Shown: in pieces, positions 16,456 to 60,178 of the stretch
How the letters are laid out: every line of letters begins with the position of its first letter
How positions within the stretch are numbered: the stretch's first letter is position 1
Assembly (NCBI RefSeq): GCF_000317895.1
Contig: NC_019567.1
Location: 3,038,001-3,102,000, forward strand
Direction: 5' to 3'
DNA length: 64,000 bases
From: Bdellovibrio bacteriovorus str. Tiberius
GTDB lineage: Bacteria > Bdellovibrionota > Bdellovibrionia > Bdellovibrionales > Bdellovibrionaceae
The notes under the pieces: model-generated
Seen by the model: only the letters and a program-made list of their open reading frames with translations
Databases searched by the model: none
What the model was told of the DNA's origin: nothing
Translations under genes and position numbers: made by a program

Positions 16456-16824
16456 TTATAGAACTTCCGGAGCCAAAGACACGATCTTAACGAACGACTT
16501 TGCTCTCAATTCTCTGGCTACTGGGCCAAAGATACGTGTTCCGATTGGCTCTTTAGAAGCGTTGATCAAAACTGCAGAGTTGTCGTCGAAGCGGATGTAA
16601 GATCCGTCTGGACGACGAAGTTTTGCTACAGTTCTAACAACAACAGCTTTAGCTACGTCACCTTTTTTTACTTTTGCATTTGGCAAAGCTTCTTTGATGG
16701 AAACTACGATAACATCACCAATGGATGCTACACGACGTTTAGAACCACCAAGAACCTTAACGCACATAACTTCTTTTGCGCCGGAGTTATCTGCTACATT
16801 CAGTCTGGTTTGCATTTGAATCAT
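16456..16824 (-). CDS. rplN: 50S ribosomal protein L14
   Basis: 122 residues, complete ([21 protein letters not shown] ... [18 protein letters not shown]). GGAG lies six bases before ATG 16824. First gene of the classical spc operon, here fused without break to the S10 operon. The expected next gene, rplX, is missing. Confidence 0.97.
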
Positions 16825-45705: not shown

Positions 45706-45906
45706 ACTCTAAAGGCTCGCCGAATCACCACCAAAAGGCAACCAACGACCCGCCCCCAATTCCCCATCTGCCCCCCAACACCAGACAAAGGAACAACCCC
45801 AACCCCAAAACGCAAAAAGGCCGACCTATATAAAACCAAGGTCGACCCAAACAAAAAAAGGCCCCCAAATGGGAGCCTTTTAAAATCTCTTTTGCTCTTG
45901 TCCTAG
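45706..45906. other. C/A-rich spacer
   Basis: About 130 bases here are extremely C- and A-rich on the plus strand and G-poor, like the 3' half of the 33725 gene. An inverted repeat GGCCGACCT/AGGTCGACC lies at about 45820-45847, followed by the terminator of the next gene. No coding signal. Confidence 0.6.
45853..45882 (-). terminator. terminator of the outer-membrane protein gene
   Basis: Minus strand AAAGGCTCCC, ATTT loop, GGGGGCCTTT then T-run (45871-45880 with 45857-45866). Confidence 0.85.
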
Positions 45907-46920
45907 TTAGAACAAGTTAAGATTTGCGGAAAGAGCTACGTTTGTGCGGTCTGCGCGGATGTCTTTTGGTGTGAACTGTACGTTTGGATACAGGTAGATA
46001 TCACGAGTGATAGAGATACCGGTACCAACAGACTGATATGGTTCCAACTGATAGTTATCAGCATAACCTTCGTAACGTGCGAACTGGAAGTAACCAAACA
46101 CGGTTCTGAAGGAATAACGGTCGTTGAAAGTGTACTGAAGGAACGGGAACAAACCGAAGCTCATGTCAGAGCGTTTGTATTTACCCGCTTTGGCTGCCGC
46201 AACCATGTTCGGATCATCCAGGTCCCCAGTGTAGAAGCTCTTACCCAAAGTAAAGCTTGTTCCACCATTCCACTTGGATTGACCGAAGTTCGCCAGAACT
46301 GTCTGGCTGAAGCTTGCTGCACCAAATGTTTTGGTCAGGTTGATAGAATCACTGTCTGTCGCATGGCTGTACTGCATGCTGGAGATCATCTGAGTGTCGA
46401 ACGCGCGGTAACCACGGCTCCAGCTCAGGTAAGGAGTGGAAACTTCATAACGAGCCAAAGTGCCTTTACGGCCTTTACGAGTGTCTTCTGCAGGCTTCAC
46501 GATATCACCGTGAAGAGGATCCACCACGGTCACGCCCGTACCGAAGCTGATATTGTCACGCTCACCCAAACGGTAGTTGACACCAACATCACCAGACAGA
46601 GTTGTCATGGCTTCGATAGTTGCGGAAGCACGGTAGTTTGGACGAACACCACTTAGAGGCTCTTCAACAGAACCACCAGAGTACGCCAGGCTGGATTTGA
46701 AAGACCATTTGGATTTGGAACCCAATTGAGCTCTCATGCGGGCGTCAGTGATTTCACTGTCGATGTCCTTTTCTTTTTCGTCAGCCTTTTTAAGGTCTTC
46801 CATTTTCACTGTGCTGGAATTTGTATTCACAGACGTGGTGGAAGTTTGTGCGAAACCAGAAACAGGGGCCATCAACAACCCTGTTGCCGCCAATACCAAG
46901 TAAGCATTCTTATTCATCAT
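45907..46920 (-). CDS. outer-membrane beta-barrel protein, unknown
   Basis: 337 residues. Signal peptide to about residue 25 (GFAQ). A charged helical lead (KMEDLKKADEKEKDIDSEITDARMRAQLG) precedes about 12 amphipathic beta strands with Tyr/Phe/Trp girdles (KWSFKSSLAYSGG, NRYSFRTVFGYFQFARYEGY). The C terminus ends LSANLNLF, with the final Phe recognised by BAM. GGAG lies before ATG 46920 and a possible promoter (TGGACT, 18 bases, TATACC) is upstream. Single-gene transcript between terminators. Function unknown; MetaI-like or porin roles cannot be told apart. Confidence 0.75.
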   Translation of the reverse strand: MMNKNAYLVLAATGLLMAPVSGFAQTSTTSVNTNSSTVKMEDLKKADEKEKDIDSEITDARMRAQLGSKSKWSFKSSLAYSGGSVEEPLSGVRPNYRASATIEAMTTLSGDVGVNYRLGERDNISFGTGVTVVDPLHGDIVKPAEDTRKGRKGTLARYEVSTPYLSWSRGYRAFDTQMISSMQYSHATDSDSINLTKTFGAASFSQTVLANFGQSKWNGGTSFTLGKSFYTGDLDDPNMVAAAKAGKYKRSDMSFGLFPFLQYTFNDRYSFRTVFGYFQFARYEGYADNYQLEPYQSVGTGISITRDIYLYPNVQFTPKDIRADRTNVALSANLNLF

Positions 46921-47092: not shown

Positions 47093-48094
47093 CTAGTGAC
47101 GCGAGGGGGCGATTAGACCTGTGCCTTTTTGTATGGAGCCTAAGCGCCAGTGCTTCTCTCCTTGGGAGGCCAACCATGTTTGTACGACTTCGGCCTGCTC
47201 TTTCTTGATAAGCAGAACCAATCCAACCCCCATGTTGAAGGTGCGATACAGCTCTTCCCCGGAAAGACTCGCGCGCGGAATGATTTTTCCAAAGACCGGA
47301 GCCATTTCATTCAATGCCGGCCAGCCGGAAATATCATAATCAAACTTCTCACTCATCCGCGGGATATTGTGAATGCCCCCACCGGTGATATGAGACGCGC
47401 CCACCATCGCCATCGGGAACTGACGACGAAGCTCATTGACCAGCTTCACGTAGATACGCGTGGGCGTCAGCAGTTCCTGCATCAGCTCGGTTTCGTCCTG
47501 TTGCACAAGCTTTCTGAGCAGGGAATAACCATTAGAGTGAAAACCTGAAGACGCAATCCCGATCAGCACATCGCCTTCGTTCATGTCTTTTTCATCGTAC
47601 AGATCCGCCGGAGACATCTCGCCCACACTGAAGCCTGCAAGGTCGTATTCATTCCCCTGATACACGCCGGGCATTTCAGCCGTTTCACCACCGATCAAAG
47701 CCATCCCGGACTGACGGCAGCCATCGACCATTCCGGCAATCAGCTCTTCACTGACTTTGGTGTCGAGCTTTCCAAAGGCCATGTAATCCAAAAAGAACAA
47801 CGGTTTTGCACCAACACACAAAAGGTCATTCACACACATCGCCACCAGATCGATTCCGATGCCGTGGTGTTTGTTCAGAGTTTGCGCCAGTTTCAACTTC
47901 GTACCCACCCCGTCTGTGCAGGAAGCCAGGTACTTTTCTTCAGTCAGTTTGTAAACGGCAGCAAAGCCGCCAATGCCCTGAAGAACCTGGTCGTTGAAAG
48001 TGGTCGGCACCAGATTTTTGATTCTTTCCACGAAGGCATCGGCCTTGGTGATGTCAACTCCTGCATTTTTATAGTCCAAAGTCACAGTCGTCAT
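47093..48094 (-). CDS. purM: phosphoribosylformylglycinamidine cyclo-ligase (AIR synthetase)
   Basis: 333 residues; ATP-dependent ring closure to AIR, purine step 5. DGVGTKLKLA, GIDLVAMCVNDLLCVGAKPLFFLDY, GGETAEMPGVY and HITGGGIHNIPR are family motifs. GGAG before ATG. Last gene of the operon; distant from purL although the two proteins are homologous. Confidence 0.96.
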   Translation of the reverse strand: MTTVTLDYKNAGVDITKADAFVERIKNLVPTTFNDQVLQGIGGFAAVYKLTEEKYLASCTDGVGTKLKLAQTLNKHHGIGIDLVAMCVNDLLCVGAKPLFFLDYMAFGKLDTKVSEELIAGMVDGCRQSGMALIGGETAEMPGVYQGNEYDLAGFSVGEMSPADLYDEKDMNEGDVLIGIASSGFHSNGYSLLRKLVQQDETELMQELLTPTRIYVKLVNELRRQFPMAMVGASHITGGGIHNIPRMSEKFDYDISGWPALNEMAPVFGKIIPRASLSGEELYRTFNMGVGLVLLIKKEQAEVVQTWLASQGEKHWRLGSIQKGTGLIAPSRH

Positions 48095-48105
48095 GGCTTA
48101 GTCTC

Positions 48106-49629
48106 CTAGTGTAAAAAATGGCGGCGGCCGGTAAAGATCATGGCTACACCCAGGCGATCGGCTTCGGCGATCACTTCCGGATCCTTCACGGATCCGCCGG
48201 GTTGAATGATGGTTTTGACCCCCAGCTTTGCAGAAACCTGAACAGAGTCTGCAAATGGGAAAAACGCGTCTGAAGCCAGTACCACGCTGGCAAGATCGGC
48301 GATGCCCTTGTCAGCCAGGCGCGAGGTGATCAGTTTTTCGATGCAGTCGATGCGGTTGGTTTGACCTGAACCCATGGTCAGAAGCTCAAACTCGGGACCG
48401 TCCTGACGGCAAAGAGCAATGGCATTGCTTTTCAGGTTCTTCACCGCCAGCATGGCAAAGGCCGCCAGACGCTGTTGTTCCGGACTGACTTGCTTTTGGG
48501 TGACAGTTTTCATATGGCTTAAATCAAAGCCATCGGCATCCTGCAGCAGCAGTCCGCCCTCGATAGAGCGTACTTGCATCGACGGATTTGGCGTTAATGA
48601 AACTTCCATCACGCGGCAGTTCTTTTTCAGCTTTTCGCGAGCGCCCTCGGTGAAGGACGGCGCCAGAATCACTTCGACAAACTTTTCGGCAAAGAACGCG
48701 GCGATGTCTTCCGTCACTGGAATGTTCAGGGCGATGATGCCGCCGAAAGAACTTTTCTCGTCCCCTTTCCAGGCTTTTTCCAAAGCACGCAACGGAGTTT
48801 CGGCCACAGCCATTCCGCAAGGCGTGTTATGTTTCACAACCACAGCGGCTGGCAGGGCTTTTTCACCTTGCCAGGAATGCACATCCTGCAAAGTCTTAAG
48901 CGCAAAGTCGGCATCCAGATAATTATTGTAGGACATTTCTTTGCCTTGCAGGGATTTGGCGTGGGCCAGACCGTCAGCAAACGGATCTTTCAGAACGACG
49001 GCCTTTTGATGCGGGTTTTCACCGTATCTTAGAGCAGCCCCGGATTTTTGCGTCAGGAATCCGGCGATGGCCATGTCATAAAAAGCGGTCATAGTGTAAA
49101 CAGAAGCGGCACATTTTTGACGGAACTCCCAGGTGGTTGCGCCGCTATTGCCGTTGAATTCTTTTAAGAACTCACCGTACTGGGACGGTTCACACAGAAC
49201 TGTGACGGACTGAAAGTTCTTTGCCCCGGCACGAAGCAGCGTCGGGCCCCCGATGTCGATGTTTTCAATGCATTCTTCAAACCCCGCCTGTTTTTGCAGG
49301 GTCGCGTGGAAAGGATAAAGATTCACCACCACCAGATCAATGGGTTCAATCCCCAGCTCAACCGCTTGGCGCACGTCATTTTCATCCTGACGACGGAACA
49401 GCAGGCTTGAGGCAATTTCAAAGCTGATGGTTTTCATGCGGCCGTTGAAGGCTTCGCCTTTGCCGCTCAAGGTTTCCACTGCGGTGACTTTGAAGCCGGC
49501 GTCGGTCAATGCCTTGGCGGTGCCGCCGCTGGCAATCAGCTCGACGTTCTGAGCTGCAAGATTTTTAGCAAGCTCCAGCAAACCGGTTTTATCAGAGACG
49601 CTCAACAGAGCTCTGCGGATTGGATTCAT
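48106..49629 (-). CDS. purH: AICAR transformylase/IMP cyclohydrolase
   Basis: 507 residues; the last two steps to IMP. N-terminal cyclohydrolase (MNPIRRALLSVSDKTGLLELAKNL, GGTAKALTDAG) and C-terminal transformylase (KYGENPHQ-like RYGENPHQKAVV, VVKHNTPCGMAV, catalytic Lys-His). ATGA overlap with purQ. Confidence 0.96.
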   Translation of the reverse strand: MNPIRRALLSVSDKTGLLELAKNLAAQNVELIASGGTAKALTDAGFKVTAVETLSGKGEAFNGRMKTISFEIASSLLFRRQDENDVRQAVELGIEPIDLVVVNLYPFHATLQKQAGFEECIENIDIGGPTLLRAGAKNFQSVTVLCEPSQYGEFLKEFNGNSGATTWEFRQKCAASVYTMTAFYDMAIAGFLTQKSGAALRYGENPHQKAVVLKDPFADGLAHAKSLQGKEMSYNNYLDADFALKTLQDVHSWQGEKALPAAVVVKHNTPCGMAVAETPLRALEKAWKGDEKSSFGGIIALNIPVTEDIAAFFAEKFVEVILAPSFTEGAREKLKKNCRVMEVSLTPNPSMQVRSIEGGLLLQDADGFDLSHMKTVTQKQVSPEQQRLAAFAMLAVKNLKSNAIALCRQDGPEFELLTMGSGQTNRIDCIEKLITSRLADKGIADLASVVLASDAFFPFADSVQVSAKLGVKTIIQPGGSVKDPEVIAEADRLGVAMIFTGRRHFLH

Positions 49630-50372
49630 ACAGTCACCCCCATTTCCTGATTCAAATAATTCACAGCACTTTTGAAAAACTCCAAACCCCAGGCTTCGCC
49701 TTTATAAGGCAGGTGCCAGTCATGCACGGCTGCCTCGGGATGCGGCATCAGCGCAAACACCAGACCCGACGGATCACAGACGCCCGCGATCTGTGCCTGA
49801 GCACCATTGACGTCTTCAGTGTAACGAAGCACAGCCTGATGCTGGGTCAGCAGACGCTGCAGCAGGCTTTCATCGCGACAAACGAAGCGGCCTTCCCCGT
49901 GACGAATCGGCAAGGCGAATCTTGCGGGAAGATCGCGCGTCCAGATACAGGGGGACTTTTCATTTCTTTCCACTTCAATCCAGCGGTCAATAAAATGACC
50001 CTGCTCGTTTTTCACCAGGGCACAGCTGCGCTGAAAGTCAGCGTCCGGCAACAGGCCCAGTTTGATCAGCGTCTGAAAGCCATTGCAGATGCCCAGCACT
50101 GGGCGGGTTTTCACAAACTGCTGCAATTCATTTTTCAGATTCATTTCAAGTTTCAGGGCCAGCACTTGCCCGCTGCCCAGATGATCACCAAAGGAAAAAC
50201 CACCGGGAATCACCAGAGCCTGGTATTCATTCAGCAGCCCCGGGTTTGCCAGAAGGTCATTGACGTGGACTTTATCCGCTTCACCTCCGGCCAGCGAAAC
50301 GGCTCTGGCTGTTTCATTTTCACAGTTGATTCCATCACCCCACAAAACCAAAAACTTAGGCTTGATAGACAT
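49626..50372 (-). CDS. purQ: FGAM synthase glutaminase subunit PurQ
   Basis: 248 residues; class I amidotransferase supplying ammonia to PurL. Nucleophile region LGICNGFQTLIKLGLLP with Cys, and His-Glu pair in LMPHPEAAVHDWHLP. PGGFSFGDHLGSG is typical. It overlaps the purL 3' end by 17 bases in another frame. It aligns with the C-terminal domain of the large fused PurL. Confidence 0.93.
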   Translation of the reverse strand: MSIKPKFLVLWGDGINCENETARAVSLAGGEADKVHVNDLLANPGLLNEYQALVIPGGFSFGDHLGSGQVLALKLEMNLKNELQQFVKTRPVLGICNGFQTLIKLGLLPDADFQRSCALVKNEQGHFIDRWIEVERNEKSPCIWTRDLPARFALPIRHGEGRFVCRDESLLQRLLTQHQAVLRYTEDVNGAQAQIAGVCDPSGLVFALMPHPEAAVHDWHLPYKGEAWGLEFFKSAVNYLNQEMGVTV

Positions 50373-53300
50373 TCAGAACTCCTTCAGACCAGATTTTTTG
50401 CAATTCGGACAAAGCGGTGTTTTGAGTGGCCCCCTGATGCTGCCAGCTCATCACAGGATTTTCCTGAACTTCACCCAACAGTCTTTGCTGACTGGTGAAC
50501 AGTTCTTCAAACTGAGACTTGTCAGCAGGCTTCACACTGACCACAAACAAGGAGCCCGTTTCAGACCACAGTTCATTCCAACTGAATGATTCCAGATTCA
50601 GCTTCATTCCCAGATTGTTGCCAAAGCCGCTTTCCGCCAAGGCGGTCATCAAGCCCCCGTCGGAAATGTCATGGCAGGACTGCAAAAGCGTTTTCTGATG
50701 GGCCGCATAGATACGGCCATAAAGATCCTTGTTGCGGGCAAGATCCGGATATTCGGGTGCAGATTCCTGCACGATGAATTCCTGGGAAAGAACCGAAGCG
50801 TAAAGGCTGCCCGTCGGTGCACCCAAAAGATAAATCAGATCCCCGGCCGTCTGGAAGAATCCGGGTGCCGTTTTCGTCGCATCCGGCACCTGCGCCACCG
50901 CCGTCACCAGCAAGGTCGGTGGTACGGAAATCTTCACGGTGTCCCCGCCCTTGGTTTTTCCGATAAAGTCGTTTTTCATACTGTCTTTACCGCTGACAAA
51001 TGGAGCGCGGTAAGCCACAGCCGCATCGTAAAGCCCCGCACACGCACGCACCAGTTGCGCCATTTTGTGGGCCGCATCGGGATTGCTTGCTTTTGGAGTC
51101 GGATCCGGCCAGCAGAAGTTATCGACCAAGGCCATCTTCGCAGGGTCCGCTCCGGTCGCCACCAGATTGCGCACGGATTCATCCACCGCTTTTTGTGCCA
51201 TCAAATAAGTGTCGTACCAGGAAAACTGCGGGCACAGTCCGTTTGAAACTGCCACGGCGTTGTTGTCATCGCCCCCATGCACTGACAGATCCAGCACACC
51301 GGCATCGTTGGCTCCGGACTGGGTTTTGCCACCGTAAGGTTTTACGCGCGTGGCCCCTTGAACTTCGTGGTCATAATAACGAACCAATGGTTCACGTGAA
51401 GCCACGTTGGGATTGGCCAGAACTTTTTTAAGTGCCACGGCAAGATCGTTGCTCGCCAGTGGTATTTTACCTTCTGCGCGGAAGTATTCCTGATATTGTT
51501 TCGGTCCGTCGAAGTGAGCTTTCAGCTTCATGCGGCTCAGACCATCATGCAGGAATTCCAACTGCAGTTTTGCCAAGGGCTCTTTGCCATGGAAGATGTC
51601 AAAGAATCCAGAATCGGTGAATTCACCCAGTACAAACGCCTCAACACCCATGTGACGGGCCAGATTCATAAAATCCATCAGGTGATTCGGGCTGACGGCG
51701 TAAGACATACGCTCCTGGGATTCGCTGACCAGCATTTCCCAGTATTCAAGCCCCGAATATTTTACCGGATGCAAGCCAAGATCCATTCGCGCGCCGCCGG
51801 AATACTGGGCCATTTCTCCAATTGACGAACTGACACCGCCGGCTCCGTTGTCGGTGATGGCTTGAATCCAGCCGTTGTCACGGGCTTTCAGTGTGAAGTC
51901 CAACAGACGCTTTTGCGTGATACTGTCGCCGATTTGTACGACGTTGGAAGCCACATTGTCATGCAACGCCAACGAGCTGAAAGTCGCACCATGCACGCCG
52001 TCTTTTCCAAGGCGGCCACCGGCCACCACAATCAAATCGCCTGCGCGGATTTCTTTGGATTCACTGGCGCGGCCATGAACCGTCTTTGGCATCACGCCGA
52101 CAGAACCCACAAAGATCAAAGGCTTCGCCGCAAATTCGCTGGAAAAACAGAAGGCCCCGTTGACAGTCGGAATGCCGCTTTGATTGCCGCCCTCTTCAAC
52201 CCCCTGATGAACCCCACGGAAGATCACACCAGGATCTTTCAACAGCTCGGGTCTTTGCGGGGAATCTGCTTCCGGGAACAGGTTCGGGGTGGAAAGACAG
52301 AACACATCCGTGTTGGCGACGGGCTTTGCACCCAATCCGCAACCCAAGATATCGCGATGAACCCCTAAGATGCCCGTCAAAGCGCCGCCGAAAGGATCCA
52401 GCGCCGACGGGCTGTTGTGTGTTTCGACTTTAACACACACATTTAATTTTGAATCAAAGTCGACAATGCCTGCATTGTCTTTAAAAACAGAAACCAGATA
52501 ACCACAGTCATCCAGATCTTTGGTGGCTTTCTGAATATAGCTTTTATAAAGGCTGGTAATTTTCCTGTCACCCAGGGCCGGGAAATCGCCAGAAACTTCG
52601 GAATAATCCACTTCAGCAGCAAAGATCTTATGCTTGCAGTGCTCACTCCAGGTTTGCGCCAGACACTCCAGCTCGACTTCGGTGATCTTGCCATGCCAGC
52701 CGTAAGAAGCTCGCTCGGCAGCAACTACCGGCGAACTGAAATGACTCAGAATGGTTTGAATCTCTTCATCACTTAAAGCCAGGCCGCGCTCGTTGTTGAT
52801 GCGCCCAAGGGTTTCGACATCCAGGTTTAAAAGCTGCAACTGCGGTGTGTGTTCAGAAGCCTTCCAAAAGTTCGAATAGGCTGCCCATGAATTTTCTTGT
52901 TTAAGGGCCGCGCCCGTCTGGATTTCCAGTTTGTTTAAAAGTGGATTGGCCAGGTTCTGGAAAAGAACCTTTTGGATTTGGTCCTTGGAAATATCCCCGC
53001 TGATTTCCATTTCCCACCCACTGTGGACTTCCAAAGGGAACTCCTGCCAGGAAGAATTATGTTGCGCAGAAAACAGCATCAAAGCTTCGGTCGCGGTGCG
53101 GGCTATGTTGTCGGTAACTCCGGCCAGAAAGCGGATCTCAACATAGGTTTTACCGTCCTGATAATCCAAGAAGCCAGTTTGCTGAGCTTCCGATATGGGA
53201 TCAAAGAAGACTTTATCCATGACAGCTTGAAGAGGGAACTCTTTGGCCGCGCCGGGTTTCTTTTCAAGCAGCCAGTACACGCGACGCAGTTGCAGTTCGT

Positions 53301-53385
53301 TCACCGGGGCTTCCAGCGACAACGCGGATTTAAGAGCTTTTTCGGTGCTGTGATCATAGCGGCTGCGCACAGATATTCTTTGCAT
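50356..53385 (-). CDS. purL: FGAM synthase, large PurL lacking the glutaminase domain
   Basis: 1009 residues, purine step 4. The first about 190 residues are PurS-like (VRSRYDHSTEKALKSAL; VFFDPISEA), followed by two AIR-synthetase-type halves with LAQTWSEHCKHKIF, ETHNSPSALDPFGGALTGILGVHRDILGCG, GAGGVSSSIGEMAQYSGGA, DNFCWPDP and CHDISDGGLMTAL. It ends where the glutaminase of a fused 1300-residue PurL would begin; that part is the separate purQ. A distinct purS is therefore unnecessary. AAGGAG precedes ATG. Confidence 0.93.
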   Translation of the reverse strand: MQRISVRSRYDHSTEKALKSALSLEAPVNELQLRRVYWLLEKKPGAAKEFPLQAVMDKVFFDPISEAQQTGFLDYQDGKTYVEIRFLAGVTDNIARTATEALMLFSAQHNSSWQEFPLEVHSGWEMEISGDISKDQIQKVLFQNLANPLLNKLEIQTGAALKQENSWAAYSNFWKASEHTPQLQLLNLDVETLGRINNERGLALSDEEIQTILSHFSSPVVAAERASYGWHGKITEVELECLAQTWSEHCKHKIFAAEVDYSEVSGDFPALGDRKITSLYKSYIQKATKDLDDCGYLVSVFKDNAGIVDFDSKLNVCVKVETHNSPSALDPFGGALTGILGVHRDILGCGLGAKPVANTDVFCLSTPNLFPEADSPQRPELLKDPGVIFRGVHQGVEEGGNQSGIPTVNGAFCFSSEFAAKPLIFVGSVGVMPKTVHGRASESKEIRAGDLIVVAGGRLGKDGVHGATFSSLALHDNVASNVVQIGDSITQKRLLDFTLKARDNGWIQAITDNGAGGVSSSIGEMAQYSGGARMDLGLHPVKYSGLEYWEMLVSESQERMSYAVSPNHLMDFMNLARHMGVEAFVLGEFTDSGFFDIFHGKEPLAKLQLEFLHDGLSRMKLKAHFDGPKQYQEYFRAEGKIPLASNDLAVALKKVLANPNVASREPLVRYYDHEVQGATRVKPYGGKTQSGANDAGVLDLSVHGGDDNNAVAVSNGLCPQFSWYDTYLMAQKAVDESVRNLVATGADPAKMALVDNFCWPDPTPKASNPDAAHKMAQLVRACAGLYDAAVAYRAPFVSGKDSMKNDFIGKTKGGDTVKISVPPTLLVTAVAQVPDATKTAPGFFQTAGDLIYLLGAPTGSLYASVLSQEFIVQESAPEYPDLARNKDLYGRIYAAHQKTLLQSCHDISDGGLMTALAESGFGNNLGMKLNLESFSWNELWSETGSLFVVSVKPADKSQFEELFTSQQRLLGEVQENPVMSWQHQGATQNTALSELQKIWSEGVLNVYQA

Positions 53386-53387
53386 CT

Positions 53388-53999
53388 TTAAGTCTCCTTA
53401 AAAGGGCTTGTGGGGATCTGCCCCAAAGCCACAAGTTCCAGAAATTGAGTGTAAGTTTGATGTTCCAGCTTATGAAAACGCACGGACCAGTCGGCAAGAC
53501 TTTCACCGGCTTCCAAAGGCAATCGCGACTGCATCAGTTGCGGGCCGGTGTCCATGCCCTCGTCCACCAGATGCAGGGTCACGCCACTTTCCTCCACACG
53601 GTCTTCGAAAGCGCGACGGATGGAATCAACCCCCGGGTAAGCGGGCAACAGCGAAGGATGAATATTCACCACCTGTGAATTCCCGCCATGCCAGCCATTG
53701 AAGGTCTGAAGAAACTCTGGACTTAGCAGGCGCATGTAACCTGCCAGAAAGACCCAGTCGATGCGGTATTCACGCAGCAGGTTTAACACGCGCTGCTCGT
53801 GTTCGCGGCGGTCGCTTTGTTTTGCCACCACAAAATGGCGCACAGAAAAATTTTTAGCCTTTTCCAAAACACCCGCCCCGGCTTTGTCAGAAAGGACAAA
53901 GGTGACTTCGGCAGAATTCAGGGACTGCGCCTTTTTCATCAGGGCTTCGGCATTTGAACCGGTTCCAGAGGCCAGAATCGCAATCCTGATTTTATTCAT
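53388..53999 (-). CDS. purN: phosphoribosylglycinamide formyltransferase
   Basis: 203 residues; uses 10-formyl-THF at step 3. ILASGTGSNAEALM, LAGYMRLLSPEFLQTF, NIHPSLLPAYPG and catalytic HLVDEGMDTGP are present. It overlaps purD by ATGA and ends 2 bases before purL. Confidence 0.95.
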   Translation of the reverse strand: MNKIRIAILASGTGSNAEALMKKAQSLNSAEVTFVLSDKAGAGVLEKAKNFSVRHFVVAKQSDRREHEQRVLNLLREYRIDWVFLAGYMRLLSPEFLQTFNGWHGGNSQVVNIHPSLLPAYPGVDSIRRAFEDRVEESGVTLHLVDEGMDTGPQLMQSRLPLEAGESLADWSVRFHKLEHQTYTQFLELVALGQIPTSPFKET

Positions 54000-55234
54000 A
54001 GCCCGATATCCTGTCGCAGGTACATGCCGTCAAAATTCACGGCCTGCATTTCCTGATAGACCTTTTCACGAGCCTCTTCCCGGGTTGAACCCAGGGCAGT
54101 GATTCCCAGCACCCGTCCACCGACATTGACCAGTTGATCATTGATACGGCTGACTCCGGCAAAGTACAAATGACGATCCGGAGCAGATGGCATCTTGGCG
54201 GTGATGGGATTTCCCAATTTCATCGGGGACCCCGGATAACCTTCACTGGTTGCCACGACGTGAACAGAAGACTCGGCAGCCAGCTCACACACTTCATTTT
54301 TCAACTGATGAGTCACAGCCTTCATGATCAGGCCTGCAAGATCGGTTTTCAGACGAGGCAGCAGCGCCTGAGTTTCAGGATCCCCCATGCGCACGTTGTA
54401 TTCCAGAACGTAAATCCCTTCGCTTGTTTTCATCAAGCCTGCAAACAGGAAGCCCTGATACGGCAGGCGCTTGTCACGCAGGCTTTTCAGGGTTTTAGAG
54501 AAAATACGGCGGATCTCAGCTTCATCCGCTTCGGTCACAAAATCACAAGGGCTGTAAGCGCCCATGCCACCGGTGTTGGCACTGAAAGGATCGGATGACA
54601 CGCGCTTATAATCACAAGCCGTGCCCAGAATCACAAAGTCTTCGCCATCACACAAAGCAAAGGCGGAAAGTTCTTGCCCGATCAGACACTGTTCAAGCAG
54701 CAGAGGAAAACCAAAATGACGCCCCAGCGTGCGCACAGCCTCTTCAGCCATGTCCCAGCTGTTGCAAACCCAAACACCCTTGCCTTGAGCCAGGCCATCG
54801 GCCTTCACCACCAGGGGGCTTTTAAAGTCATGCTTTCCCACTGCGAGCAAAGCCTGTTCTTCCGAGTAGCTGACCTGGCAAGCTGCGGTTCTAACGCCTG
54901 CATCCTTCAGCACCCCTTTGCAGAAAAGTTTGGATGATTCCAGCTGAGCCACTTCCATGGACGGTGCAAAGCAGGCAATGCCGCGTTTTTGCAGGCGCAG
55001 CTTCAAGTCAGACAAAATCAAAGACTCCGGACCCACCACCACCAAAGAAACACTGTTTTCGACACAGAAGGTTTCTATGGCTTCCGGACTTTCACAGTTC
55101 ACGCAAGTAATACCTGCTTGCTGCATTCCGGGATTTCCCGGCGCCACCCACAGCTCGGTCACCAGGGAAGAGCTTTTCAGCTTTTGCGCCAAGGCGTGCT
55201 CGCGCCCGCCTTTTCCGACGACGACCAGTTTCAT
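53996..55234 (-). CDS. purD: phosphoribosylamine-glycine ligase
   Basis: 412 residues, ATP-grasp enzyme of step 2. VVGKGGREHALAQKL, VVVGPESLILSDL, LVVKADGLAQGKGVWV, YQGFLFAGLM and EYNVRMGDPETQALLPRL are the expected motifs. It overlaps purC and purN by 4 bases each. Confidence 0.95.
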   Translation of the reverse strand: MKLVVVGKGGREHALAQKLKSSSLVTELWVAPGNPGMQQAGITCVNCESPEAIETFCVENSVSLVVVGPESLILSDLKLRLQKRGIACFAPSMEVAQLESSKLFCKGVLKDAGVRTAACQVSYSEEQALLAVGKHDFKSPLVVKADGLAQGKGVWVCNSWDMAEEAVRTLGRHFGFPLLLEQCLIGQELSAFALCDGEDFVILGTACDYKRVSSDPFSANTGGMGAYSPCDFVTEADEAEIRRIFSKTLKSLRDKRLPYQGFLFAGLMKTSEGIYVLEYNVRMGDPETQALLPRLKTDLAGLIMKAVTHQLKNEVCELAAESSVHVVATSEGYPGSPMKLGNPITAKMPSAPDRHLYFAGVSRINDQLVNVGGRVLGITALGSTREEAREKVYQEMQAVNFDGMYLRQDIGL

Positions 55235-56265
55235 GCTTTGTTCTCCAGCAAAGACAAAGCCTTTTGATGCCAGAATTTCAAGTTGATGTTTTCGTCAAAA
55301 GGACGGGGTTTGTTAAGGACAGCGGCGATCTCGTTAGCCAAAGCCAGGTACAGCCATGAACTGACCTGGATCTGTTCTGCATTCAATGCTGCGGGCTTCT
55401 GACCCAGTTCATTCTCGCAGATGGATTTCCAGTCTTGGGTTTTTCTTTCCTTGGCCAACTCTTTGGCTTTTTTAACCGCTTCGCTCCACTCTGAACCTGT
55501 GTAGATCTGACGCAAGAATTCTTTGGAAAGAGGCAGACCTTCATAAGTCAGACGCAATTCATCCGGCCCGATGGAATCCACCAGCACCAGTCCGCGCTGA
55601 CCGTTGTTTTCATGGGTAAAGGCGAACTCAAGCTTCCCGTCCCATAATTTGACTCCGAAGCTTGCAAAAAGCTTTTCAAGCTCGGCCGCCACATCCTGGG
55701 TGTTTTTGCGCAAGGCCGCGTATTCAAAGTCGTTCACCACGTTCATGGCCGCCACATCAGCCTTGGACAGGTAGCGATCTGTGGTTTCAAGTTTTGTTGA
55801 AACCTCCACCAGGGCTGGCATAAAGCTGTCAGCAGACGTTGGCATCCGGGTCAGCTCCAGATCCGCAAGATATGCGGGGTTCTTTTTCAGACGTCCTTCC
55901 AAAGAATTCCCCTGTCCCAGATGACGACGGAAGATCACTTCCAGCGGCACCAGACACTGGGTCGGGCGACAGGCATACATGGAATAATCATAATCTTCAC
56001 CCTTCCATTCTGGGCGCAACACGTTCACCGGCTGCACTTCAATGGAAGTGCGCGAACGACCGGACAGATAGTGCGAAGAAAAACCCTTCGCCGAAAGATG
56101 CTCAAAGAACATCGAGGCCATCGCCGCCAAAGCTTCGCCTTTTTGCGGGATTTCATCGGGCATCTCGCCCCAGTCAAAAATGGAATAGCGATTGCTGTAT
56201 TCAAAAACAATTTTGTCGTTGTTCTGATAAAGGTCCTTTACGGAACCGCGATAGATCAGATTCAT
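55231..56265 (-). CDS. purC: SAICAR synthetase, long divergent form
   Basis: 344 residues (E. coli 237). YRGSVKDLY, SNRYSIFDWGEMPDEIPQKGEAL, LVPLEVIFRRHLGQGNSLEGRL and FAFTHENNGQRGLVLVDSIGPDELR correspond to the ATP, substrate and Mg motifs of PurC but with clear differences (FDWGEM for AFDV, GQGNS for AGSGW). ATG 56265 overlaps the purE stop (ATGA); a frame to 56298 would run inside purE. Operon position supports the call. Confidence 0.85.
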   Translation of the reverse strand: MNLIYRGSVKDLYQNNDKIVFEYSNRYSIFDWGEMPDEIPQKGEALAAMASMFFEHLSAKGFSSHYLSGRSRTSIEVQPVNVLRPEWKGEDYDYSMYACRPTQCLVPLEVIFRRHLGQGNSLEGRLKKNPAYLADLELTRMPTSADSFMPALVEVSTKLETTDRYLSKADVAAMNVVNDFEYAALRKNTQDVAAELEKLFASFGVKLWDGKLEFAFTHENNGQRGLVLVDSIGPDELRLTYEGLPLSKEFLRQIYTGSEWSEAVKKAKELAKERKTQDWKSICENELGQKPAALNAEQIQVSSWLYLALANEIAAVLNKPRPFDENINLKFWHQKALSLLENKA

Positions 56266-56975
56266 CGGCCTGCTCCCAATGCTTTCAGCTTGTTCCATTG
56301 ATTCACGAAATTAGTCACGTTGTTGGCCCCCACCCAGAATCCGCCATGGCGGGCTTTGGCATAGAAGTCCAACGCCAGATTAGAGCTGGCCAGTTGTTCT
56401 TTTTCACACAGGAACAGATTCAACCCTTGCGTGTGCGGAAGCTCCCAGGGACTGACGATTTCACCCAGACAGGTTTCGGCCTGAGCCGCCGTCCATTCAA
56501 TCTGCAGACCCGTTTGGGTCTGGATTTCATCCAGAGCTTTTTGAATTGGAGAATAGCTTTCAAGACTGCGGTTCCAGTGCAGACACAGGCGGTCTTTTGG
56601 AACTTTCGCCAGACGAACAATGAAGTCTCCGATGGCGCTGGCATTTTCTTCAGTCACTGCAGCCACGGGAATTCCACGGGGCATCTGAACAATCGACAAG
56701 AAGGCATCAAGGCCAGCAAAAGCCCCGTTCACCGCCACGCCAAAGACCGGCTTGTCTGTTAAAGAAGCCACCACACCCGGAAGGTGGGCTGCCAGGCCCG
56801 CACCGGCAACAAAAGCATCCGCACCGCAGTTCTTTACAATCTCGTGGACTCGGGCGGGATCACGGTGGGCCGAAGCCACTTCCATTTTCACATCGCCGCA
56901 TTTTTCAAGGGAACGACACAACGGACCGTACACACGCTCATCATTCGCACTGCCAAAAAGAACCTGAATTTTCAT
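56262..56975 (-). CDS. purE: PurE-type carboxyaminoimidazole mutase with extra C-terminal domain
   Basis: 237 residues. Residues 1-150 are PurE: LFGSANDERVYGPL, ASAHRDPARV, FVAGAGLAAHLPGVVAS, LDAFLSIVQMPRGIPVAAV. The remaining 85 residues (SLESYSPIQKALDEIQ ... NNVTNFVNQWNKLKALGAGR) are not in usual PurE (160 residues) and I do not recognise them. No purK is near, so it may act as a direct AIR carboxylase or use a distant PurK. ATGA overlaps on both sides. Confidence 0.87.
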   Translation of the reverse strand: MKIQVLFGSANDERVYGPLCRSLEKCGDVKMEVASAHRDPARVHEIVKNCGADAFVAGAGLAAHLPGVVASLTDKPVFGVAVNGAFAGLDAFLSIVQMPRGIPVAAVTEENASAIGDFIVRLAKVPKDRLCLHWNRSLESYSPIQKALDEIQTQTGLQIEWTAAQAETCLGEIVSPWELPHTQGLNLFLCEKEQLASSNLALDFYAKARHGGFWVGANNVTNFVNQWNKLKALGAGR

Positions 56976-58411
56976 AGTTCACCACCTAAATTGATGTTCC
57001 GGGTCTTCAAAAAGTTTTCAGTTGAAACCGGAACGGGATAATCACCATCAAGACAAGCACTGCAAAGATTCTTAAGGCCCAGGCCCTCTTGCAGTCGGTT
57101 CAGCGGAAGGAAGACCAGACCGTCCACCTCCAGAACCTTTTCCACTTCCGCTTCGCTGCGCTTGTGCGCCACCAGCGATTCTCCATCCGGGAAATCAATG
57201 CCATAGAAACAAGGATGACGGATCGGCGGACAGGTGCTGGCCAGATAGACCTTTTCCGCCCCGGCATCACGAAGCAGTCGGATAATGCGGGCGGAAGTGG
57301 TCCCGCGCACGATGCTGTCATCCACAAGCAGGATTTTTTTACCTTTGATCTCGCTTTGCACTGGGGAAAGTTTCAGATTCACCATCATTTTGCGAACCTC
57401 AGGTTCGTTGACGATAAAGCTTCTTTGCACATAGCGGTTTTTGATCAGAACTTCGCGGTAGGGTTTTTCCAGCACTTCCGCCAATCGGCAGGCCGCCGCC
57501 CGGGAAGTGTCCGGTACCGGAGCCACGACATCGATATCCAGCCCTTTTTTGCGGCACTCTTCCGCCAGGATTTCACCCAGCTTCAGGCGCACTTCATAAA
57601 CCGGACGGCCGTGCCACTCGGTTTCAGAACCGGCAAAATAAATCCATTCAAACATGCACGGGCGCGGTTTCTTTTCACTTAAGACAAAAGAATGCAGATT
57701 GCGATCCTTGTCGACAAAGACCAGCTCGCCGGGGCGCAGATCACGCCAGTACTCGTAACCCAGTCCGAAGAAAACCTGTTTTTCAGAGGCAAAACAGTAA
57801 TTGTACTTATCGCCCTTTTTCTGGCGCCCGATCAGCAAAGGCCGTATGCCATTCATATCACTGAAGGCAAACATGCCCTGATCGGCCAGCATACCAATAG
57901 AGCTATAAGCCCCTTGCACAGTTTGCAGAAGCTCTTTCACGGCCTCGGCCAGGCTGGCCGGAAGATCCGGGTTGTCCTTGCGTGAAGACAGCCCCACCGC
58001 CACCATGTGCATCAGGATTTCCAGATCGTTGCGCGAAAAGGTCCACCTTAGTTTTCGATTGCGCAGATAATCCACGATTTCGTCATAGTTCGTGACATTA
58101 CCGTTATGAATCATGCCGATGCCATAGGGATAGCTTAAGAAGATGGGCTGCAGGTCCTCTTTATCAACGCTGCCGATAGTGGAATAACGTGTGTGCCCCA
58201 AGGCCATGGTGCCCTTCAGGCGCTTGCGGCGTTCGGTGGTGAAGACGTCTTCCACCAGTCCCAGATCCTTTTCCAGATGAAACTGCGAGCGTTCAAAATC
58301 ATAACTCAGAATCCCCGCCGCATCCTGCCCGCGGTGCTGAAGAGCGAACAATGCCGGGTACAGCTTTTCTCCGGCCTGATCTTCACCGATGAGTCCTACA
58401 ACGCCACACAT
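56972..58411 (-). CDS. purF: amidophosphoribosyltransferase
   Basis: 479 residues; first committed step (PRPP + Gln to phosphoribosylamine). After Met the N-terminal Cys2 nucleophile (MCGVVGLIG) is exposed without a propeptide. GHTRYSTIG, PRT loop ILLVDDSIVRGTTSARII and, at the end, LCSACLDGDYPVPV. First gene of the operon; a terminator hairpin ends 14 bases before its ATG. Confidence 0.96.
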   Translation of the reverse strand: MCGVVGLIGEDQAGEKLYPALFALQHRGQDAAGILSYDFERSQFHLEKDLGLVEDVFTTERRKRLKGTMALGHTRYSTIGSVDKEDLQPIFLSYPYGIGMIHNGNVTNYDEIVDYLRNRKLRWTFSRNDLEILMHMVAVGLSSRKDNPDLPASLAEAVKELLQTVQGAYSSIGMLADQGMFAFSDMNGIRPLLIGRQKKGDKYNYCFASEKQVFFGLGYEYWRDLRPGELVFVDKDRNLHSFVLSEKKPRPCMFEWIYFAGSETEWHGRPVYEVRLKLGEILAEECRKKGLDIDVVAPVPDTSRAAACRLAEVLEKPYREVLIKNRYVQRSFIVNEPEVRKMMVNLKLSPVQSEIKGKKILLVDDSIVRGTTSARIIRLLRDAGAEKVYLASTCPPIRHPCFYGIDFPDGESLVAHKRSEAEVEKVLEVDGLVFLPLNRLQEGLGLKNLCSACLDGDYPVPVSTENFLKTRNINLGGEL

Positions 58412-58644
58412 GGAGCGACCCCTTTAAAAAACAAAAACGGCGTCACTGGGACGCCGTTTACTTTAATATTGATATTTGATTTTTTCTGCTGGCAGTTCGG
58501 GTGCAAAGACACACCGAGGGTGTTCAAACGGGATGTCTCTCCCGAAGAGGGTCCCTTCGATGGGGGCCTAGGTGGCGAAGAATGTCTCAAAAACACTTGA
58601 TGTGTCATGGTCTCTCTTTACGCTGATTGGGTGGAATGCAACCA
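58412..58644 (-). ncRNA. structured purF leader, candidate attenuator or riboswitch
   Basis: Reading the minus strand, GACACA (58601-58606) can pair with TGTGTC (58508-58513), and inside it GTGTT (58592-58596) with AACAC (58520-58524), enclosing CTTCG/CGAAG, GGGA/TCCC and a CTC-TTCG-GGAG hairpin. An intrinsic terminator follows before purF. Nested stems and terminator together look like a regulated 5' leader. Known purine, PRPP/ykkC and glycine aptamer signatures were looked for and not found. A 70-codon frame (58608-58396) also crosses it. Confidence 0.5.
58425..58459 (-). terminator. intrinsic terminator just upstream of purF
   Basis: AAACGGCGTC, loop, GACGCCGTTT (58450-58459 with 58435-58444), then TTTGTTTTTT. 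It lies inside the purF leader, so expression of the whole purine operon must pass it. Confidence 0.88.
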
Positions 58645-58674
58645 ACGCTAGCGACCGTGACAGAGTTTCGTCAA
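58645..58674 (-). promoter_or_regulatory. possible purine operon promoter
   Basis: TTGACG (58669-58674), 18 bases, TAGCGT (58645-58650). The -10 is weak. Direct TGACAGA repeats overlap it and could be an operator. Confidence 0.4.
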
Positions 58675-58717
58675 GGCCCCTGACAGAATCCTGACAATTC
58701 AACACATCTTGCCATAA

Positions 58718-60178
58718 TCAAGGCTTACACTCTTGGGCATCATTACTGCCGCCGTCGCAACCCAGAGCCTTTTGCAACTCGGGCTTGGCGTAATAGATAC
58801 GATTGATACGACGATTTGCATCCGGGTGACTGGAATGACCATCCGAATGCTTCATATCTTCCATATACGCGCGGATTTCCTCCAACTGAGGGCATGACTC
58901 CACAAATTGATCCATCTTTCTGTCGACCGCCTCTGTCACCTCTGCGCATGCAGTCCCATAGAACATGGTCTGTGATCCAAAAGCGTATTCCTTAGCCTTG
59001 GCAGAATCCTGAATACCAGAAATTTTTGACGTCAATGCCTGAGCCGAAATCCAGTCAGAGAAAGCTTCCTGAATATGACCTGTTCCGGTGATTTCACTGC
59101 AATACTTGTAGCGCTCGTAGTTCTTTTCAATATTCTGACGGGAATCCTCAAAGCGGGCATCCGTGGCATCGGTCGCTTTCGTTTCGCCGGTTTCTTCATC
59201 GATTTCGTCGCCGACTTCAGCTTTCAGGCCGTCTTCAAATTCATTGATCTCGCGAAGCAAAGCATCCTTCGTGGGAATGCTGACTTCAATGGACTGCGGA
59301 GACTGCAGACAGCTGATCACATTTTTAAACGGATTCTGGGCCATTCTGACCGCGGCATTGACTGTCGGTTGATTGGGCTTCACCACCAGACTCATAAAGT
59401 CCGGCAGTTTCGCCCCCTCTTTGCCGAAATCCATTTCCATGGCACAAGGATCAATCCCGTGACCGAACTCGTGGGCCAGGGTTGCAAACAGCGACGCTTC
59501 CGGCAAATTCATCATCTGCGGGCACACCGTGATCGTGTTTTCTTCAGAGGAATAATAGGCATTCGGTGATTCACACCCGTCAGCCACCAGATCCATGTAC
59601 CGGCCGTCAGTTTTTGCCGCCCGATATTTGATGGCCTTCACCCGGGCGATCATGTTGTCGATCTGCTTGCCGTTGGCGGAAGTCTTCTGCACTTCCAGAG
59701 CTTTGACAACGTGATTGCGGGCGTCTTCAACAATCTTCAGGGTGCGGGCCGTTTCTTTCTTCAGACGTTCTTTGTTGCGCTGAAGCTGTTCCTTGCCGCC
59801 GGCCGCGGCTTCATCCATAAATTGATTGGCATAGACAAAGGGATCCTGCACGGCGCTTTGCGGGAAGGTGCCTTTCGCGCAATGTTCGGCAAAACTCAGA
59901 TTGCCAACCATTGCCATATTTGGAACCTGACGGCCTTCGCTGTCCTGATACAGATAAAAATCCTGGGCTTTTCCCGCCAGCTTCCCGCAATAGCCTTCAA
60001 AGGTACAAGTTGGTGACTGCGGTGTCTCACAGGCCCCGCTGCGATCCGCTGAGATTTTCAAGGTCTCGCGCATTTGGGAAATCTTGTTGATGGTTTCCCG
60101 CATGTGAGGACTGACCGCTTCCTGTGCAGAAGCCGTGAGTGAAGAAAACGTCATCGCAACGAACAAAATGGACTTCAT
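58718..60178 (-). CDS. secreted HExxH zinc metallopeptidase
   Basis: 486 residues with a signal peptide (cleavage near SAQ, residue 19). Zinc motif AHEFGHGIDP (HEFGH at 236-240), with EAFSDW (371-376) as likely third ligand and a downstream SSHPDANRRINRIYY block. This arrangement recalls gluzincins of the M13/M48 kind, but no close family is recognised. Eleven or so cysteines suggest disulfides in the periplasm or outside. AGGAAA lies before ATG 60178. Probably co-transcribed with the small gene 3 bases upstream. A protein-degrading role is inferred from the motif. Confidence 0.8.
   Translation of the reverse strand: MKSILFVAMTFSSLTASAQEAVSPHMRETINKISQMRETLKISADRSGACETPQSPTCTFEGYCGKLAGKAQDFYLYQDSEGRQVPNMAMVGNLSFAEHCAKGTFPQSAVQDPFVYANQFMDEAAAGGKEQLQRNKERLKKETARTLKIVEDARNHVVKALEVQKTSANGKQIDNMIARVKAIKYRAAKTDGRYMDLVADGCESPNAYYSSEENTITVCPQMMNLPEASLFATLAHEFGHGIDPCAMEMDFGKEGAKLPDFMSLVVKPNQPTVNAAVRMAQNPFKNVISCLQSPQSIEVSIPTKDALLREINEFEDGLKAEVGDEIDEETGETKATDATDARFEDSRQNIEKNYERYKYCSEITGTGHIQEAFSDWISAQALTSKISGIQDSAKAKEYAFGSQTMFYGTACAEVTEAVDRKMDQFVESCPQLEEIRAYMEDMKHSDGHSSHPDANRRINRIYYAKPELQKALGCDGGSNDAQECKP

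Follow-up and report, generated by a model that had tools for sequence, protein, structure and literature searches.

A putative pyrBI-type, ribosome-controlled transcription attenuator in the leader of the Bdellovibrio purine operon

We propose that the leader of the purine operon of Bdellovibrio bacteriovorus str. Tiberius is a ribosome-controlled transcription attenuator with the architecture of Escherichia coli pyrBI (pyrL), a reading to which we assign a probability of roughly three in four on the basis of sequence comparison. Central to it is a previously unannotated leader ORF, missed in an earlier note on this DNA, which runs through the hairpin of an intrinsic terminator before purF in every one of the 20 Bdellovibrio-genus genomes in which this purF was found; these 20 leaders constitute our data set throughout. 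The features concerned are collected in Table 1, in which positions refer to the window, i.e., the whole stretch of 64,000 nucleotides (nt) that was analyzed. The operon genes lie on the minus strand in the order purF-E-C-D-N-L-Q-H-M, and NCBIfam matches for all nine confirm the nine-gene purine operon described in the earlier note.

Table 1. Features of the purine operon and its leader in the window
Feature	Position	Strand	Details
purF, amidophosphoribosyltransferase	56972..58411	-	TIGR01134, 410.8 bits versus a cut-off of 350
purE, purC, purD, purN, purL, purQ, purH, purM	47093..56975	-	NCBIfam matches
Terminator U-tract	58426..58437	-	
Terminator stem-loop	58435..58459	-	AAACGGCGTC-CCAGT-GACGCCGTTT; in frame in the leader ORF, encodes NGVPVTPF
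A-rich stretch, 55% A	58456..58497	-	AAAAAA at 58485-58480; immediately 5' of the hairpin's GGCGTC core
Leader ORF, 70 aa	58396..58608	-	MTHQVFLRHSSPPRPPSKGPSSGETSRLNTLGVSLHPNCQQKKSNINIKVNGVPVTPFLFFKGVAPCVAL, then stop; spans the terminator, 16-nt overlap with purF
Shine-Dalgarno-like GAGAGA before the leader ORF	58611..58616	-	GAGAG-type purine stretch in the same place in most leaders
Putative promoter	58645..58674	-	TTGACG at 58674-58669, 18-nt spacer, TAGCGT at 58650-58645
Operator-like block	58679..58697	-	TTGTCAGGATTCTGTCAGG; two TGTCAG copies 11 bp apart, adjoins the -35 box upstream

The terminator has a 10-bp stem (-15.2 kcal/mol, z -4.9), and its U-tract ends 14 nt 5' of the purF ATG (58411), in agreement with the strong intrinsic terminator claimed previously. 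It is kept in 20/20 genomes, with the hairpin located 22-72 nt upstream of the gene. A consensus fold of the 20 leaders returned the terminator alone, with 9 pairs, two of which show double compensatory changes (e.g., C-G to A-U in six sequences). Scored as a named structure, 96% of its cells were paired versus 91% in shuffles, and 7 cells (in 2 pairs) were changed on both sides versus 1.9 in shuffles. The covariation check that the earlier note had suggested for the leader stems gave a positive outcome for the terminator and nowhere else in the leader. No promoter-like site was found between the terminator and purF in the window. Attenuation of the purine operon is therefore well supported, given a conserved terminator with compensatory changes and no such site before purF.

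The leader ORF differs in length among the 20 genomes (45-82 aa with the assigned start codons; the longest leader frame, of 96 aa, begins at an upstream GTG and lies outside this range), and it ends in all of them between 12 nt before and 22 nt after the purF ATG, including those with hairpins 54-72 nt away. We give little weight to the stop position by itself, because chance alone often yields a stop placed in this way (14-95% in shuffled spacers). The spacing between start codon and hairpin (96, 132, 141, 144, 147, 153, 162, or 207 nt) is a multiple of 3 in 19/20 leaders, whereas that between the -35 box and the start codon is not confined to multiples of 3. The exception is G024, in which the ORF is in another register, with a TTG start and a stop 12 nt before purF. 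Relative to G008, the six leaders that align with it well (G000, G023, G019, G021, G016, and G007) show 20 indels, each a multiple of 3; where the alignment is poor, individual gaps do not follow this rule, although the summed length does. The +1 and +2 frames of the leaders contain stops in every case.

An ATG-initiated ORF of this kind arose in 6-27% of shuffled leaders (mean 13.5%), and under neutral substitution to 50-90% identity the frame would stay open in roughly 11-50% of lineages. Given that neutral expectation, chance does not account for its retention in some twelve lineages, with the qualification that the lineages are related; as the leaders share ancestry, counts such as 20/20 are not independent. 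Pooled pS and pN values of 0.297 and 0.143, respectively (pN being about half of pS), point to weak to moderate purifying selection on the leader ORF. The best-conserved peptide block is NGVxxTPF. The peptide has no Pfam family, and no second copy of the leader was found elsewhere in the genome. Beyond the genus, fragmentary weak matches (E 0.0015-0.0085) among 144 genomes of the class were taken as chance. About 430 kb of control sequence from the same genome (the window plus 18 stretches of 20 kb) contained two weak candidates for further leader terminators embedded in an ORF. At L124, a terminator-like hairpin (16661-16684, plus strand) lies within a 62-aa ORF that ends 4 nt past the start of the downstream ORF; its U-tract is weak and the arrangement may be due to chance. 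No leader attenuator was seen at pyrB in this genome.

Directly before the hairpin, the leader ORF is rich in A. The 42 nt preceding the hairpin core contain 38-60% A versus 18-31% in the remainder of the ORF, and 19/20 leaders have four or more consecutive A residues (4-8 nt) at -41 to -17 from the hairpin (G013 is the exception); the corresponding figures are 8/44 for other terminators and 13% for randomly chosen positions. Near the hairpin, A was used at 50 synonymous third positions versus 28.6 expected (z 5.7), an excess that extends over the whole ORF (z 3.4 away from the hairpin). These features suggest that the A-run might sense ATP, mirroring the U-rich sensor of pyrL. We treat ATP sensing as a suggestion rather than a result, because the region upstream of terminators in this genome is generally A-rich (mean 36%).

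In E. coli, the leader gene pyrL contains the pyrBI terminator (PMC4824070). U makes up 49% of pyrL, and transcription terminates when UTP is plentiful, whereas under scarce UTP the ribosome blocks hairpin folding (PMC10135430). The purF leader resembles this system in sequence layout, which is the level at which the likeness is drawn: (i) a leader ORF spans the intrinsic terminator and has its stop close to the first structural gene; (ii) the terminator before that gene is conserved, with compensatory changes and a U-tract; (iii) an antiterminator would not be required, and none was detected in the consensus folds; and (iv) the operon serves nucleotide biosynthesis. It differs in that the operon is for purines and not pyrimidines, that an A-run takes the place of a pause region rich in the sensed U, and that the ORF is longer (45-82 codons) and touches or overlaps purF; no sequence relation to pyrL was found.

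By analogy, the leader ORF, which begins soon after the promoter-like boxes and stays open and in frame across the hairpin up to the purF start, would allow a ribosome tight behind RNA polymerase to mask the hairpin sequence and block its folding, resulting in read-through. With the polymerase ahead of the ribosome, the hairpin would fold and transcription would end before purF. A ribosome finishing the ORF at or beside the purF start could also aid purF initiation. Less certainly, low purine nucleotide levels would slow the polymerase at the A-run, giving the ribosome time to close the gap and permitting read-through into the operon, and abundant nucleotides from prey would favor termination. 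We hold this nucleotide-sensing part, i.e., the operon being on at low ATP and off upon nucleotide inflow from prey as a purine mirror of pyrBI, at somewhat less than even odds. In a study of strain HD100, PurF (Bd3009) protein was at 0.06-fold 2 h after attack on prey, and the authors propose that PurF is suppressed while purines come from prey (PMC12546842). This drop is consistent with nucleotide control, and its sign fits termination at plentiful nucleotides. Bd3009 is probably the counterpart of this purF, given the single purF in the presumed HD100 genome.

The conserved boxes listed as the putative promoter probably serve as such, as judged from their conservation: TTGAC[CG]RAACT is present in 20/20 purF leaders, and pyrB in the same genome has similar boxes (TTGACA ... 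TAGTCT). The interval 58412-58674 given in the earlier note takes in these boxes as well, although they are not expected in the RNA. Upstream, the TTGTCAGGATTCTGTCAGG block occupies the same position with few changes in 20/20 leaders, and TTGTYAGGNTTNTGTYAGG has a single exact match genome-wide. The block is probably a binding site of some purine-operon regulator; it may add to regulation or even supply it alone, and on its own it could cause the PurF drop in prey. A Pho-box reading of the TGTCAG repeats was not adopted, there being none such in an 8.5-kb stretch with the pstB region.

Other readings place the ORF and the hairpin in different roles. The earlier note offered a riboswitch, a protein, or a leader peptide as the agent of attenuation; the leader peptide option is the part that stands, in that the evidence favors a translated leader ORF. 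An identical anatomy would serve an attenuator that senses translation rather than purines (general rate, amino-acid supply, or EF-P-dependent Pro-Pro pausing), with slow ribosomes freeing the terminator. A Pro-Pro motif is found in 11/14 leaders, and polyproline before pyrL increases termination when EF-P is lacking (PMC5021804). We nevertheless regard sensing of translation as unlikely: the motif is missing from G010, G013, G004, and the G015 group, and PurF drops during predator growth in prey (PMC12546842), when translation should be high. If the peptide were itself active, through nascent-chain arrest or as a small protein with a function, a stalled ribosome would set the terminator. P37, C39, and N45 recur in 90% or more of 14 leaders, which, together with pN below pS, would agree with such activity, but the length ranges widely, the middle can largely be dispensed with, the NGVxxTPF block is largely imposed by the hairpin DNA, and a Pfam family is lacking, making an active peptide quite unlikely. 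Coupling of translation to purF might also be the sole role of the ORF, the hairpin then being a minor or constitutive, unregulated partial terminator. That the ORF stops at the start of purF throughout the 20 genomes fits that arrangement; since it would be odd to keep a hairpin and U-tract with compensatory changes within a coding frame if they were unused, we consider it very unlikely.

A structured RNA 5' of the terminator is a further alternative. Purine-related riboswitches (guanine/adenine, PRPP, ppGpp, and ZTP) control purine genes, often via terminators. Unlike these, the purF leader has no conserved aptamer, and the RNA family search called for by the earlier note returned no Rfam match at the gathering threshold; below it, the leader matches were weak and at chance level. 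The nested pairing that the note had described is present in the letters (GACACA 58607-58602 with TGTGTC 58513-58508, and GTGTT with AACAC), but it is not conserved: 69% of cells are paired, no pair is changed on both sides, and covariation falls below that of shuffles. The leader does appear structured in the window when promoter DNA and terminator are included (fold z -3.4), and certain short hairpins reappear in close relatives. In contrast, the predicted transcript minus the terminator folds near shuffles (z -1.3 in the window and -0.5 in one relative), and several relatives have lost its middle segment through deletion. A consensus fold of the 11 alignable leaders adds just two short, poorly supported stems to the terminator, and no antiterminator or alternative structure is conserved in the consensus folds. 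A start-codon stem obtained by folding 58674-58426 was rejected because it relies on promoter DNA. We therefore reject a riboswitch, which lacks covariation, structure, and an Rfam match and is highly improbable here. Likewise, the idea that the leader represents a new regulatory RNA class is not upheld, as the stems put forward for it show neither covariation nor persistence and the terminator is the only conserved covarying structure found.

The preferred reading, a pyrBI-like attenuator, can also be set against other translated leaders. Like trp/his-type attenuators, the purF leader combines a translated leader with a terminator. In the trp/his type, however, the leader ORF ends before the terminator, which is governed by an antiterminator and control codons (PMC4824070), whereas here the terminator lies within the ORF and neither an antiterminator nor a run of a single codon is conserved. 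In the Salmonella mgtCBR leader (mgtM), coupling of an ORF to transcription is reported to be ATP-responsive (PMC6908480); that leader uses alternative structures and is on at high ATP, while none are conserved in the purF leader and the expected sign is opposite. We found no purine operon controlled by a leader ORF with an internal terminator in the open literature searched, the coverage of which was limited, and within that literature the purF attenuator would be the first purine counterpart of pyrBI-type control. If correct, repressor-free control by ribosome-polymerase coupling would extend to purines and to Bdellovibrionota, and would offer a mechanism for the reported 16-fold PurF drop in prey. 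Such attenuation would require tight coupling of transcription and translation, a coupling that could then be tested in a predator with two contrasting life phases.

Several observations concern the operon's surroundings and its distribution. A 337-aa ORF without NCBIfam or Pfam family lies 3' of purM on the same strand (45907-46920, minus), with a terminator-like hairpin behind it (45856-45881, minus); this ORF may be a tenth operon gene. Upstream of the leader, a 486-aa ORF without Pfam match (58718-60178, minus) carries an HExxH-like stretch (HEFGHG), comparable to that of metalloproteases. The Bdellovibrio genomes G018, G022, and G025 have no match to purF, purM, or purH, which suggests that de novo purine synthesis has been lost, although the G018 genome is just 88% complete. 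In G009, purH and purM are present and no purF was found, as though the operon lacked its front part.
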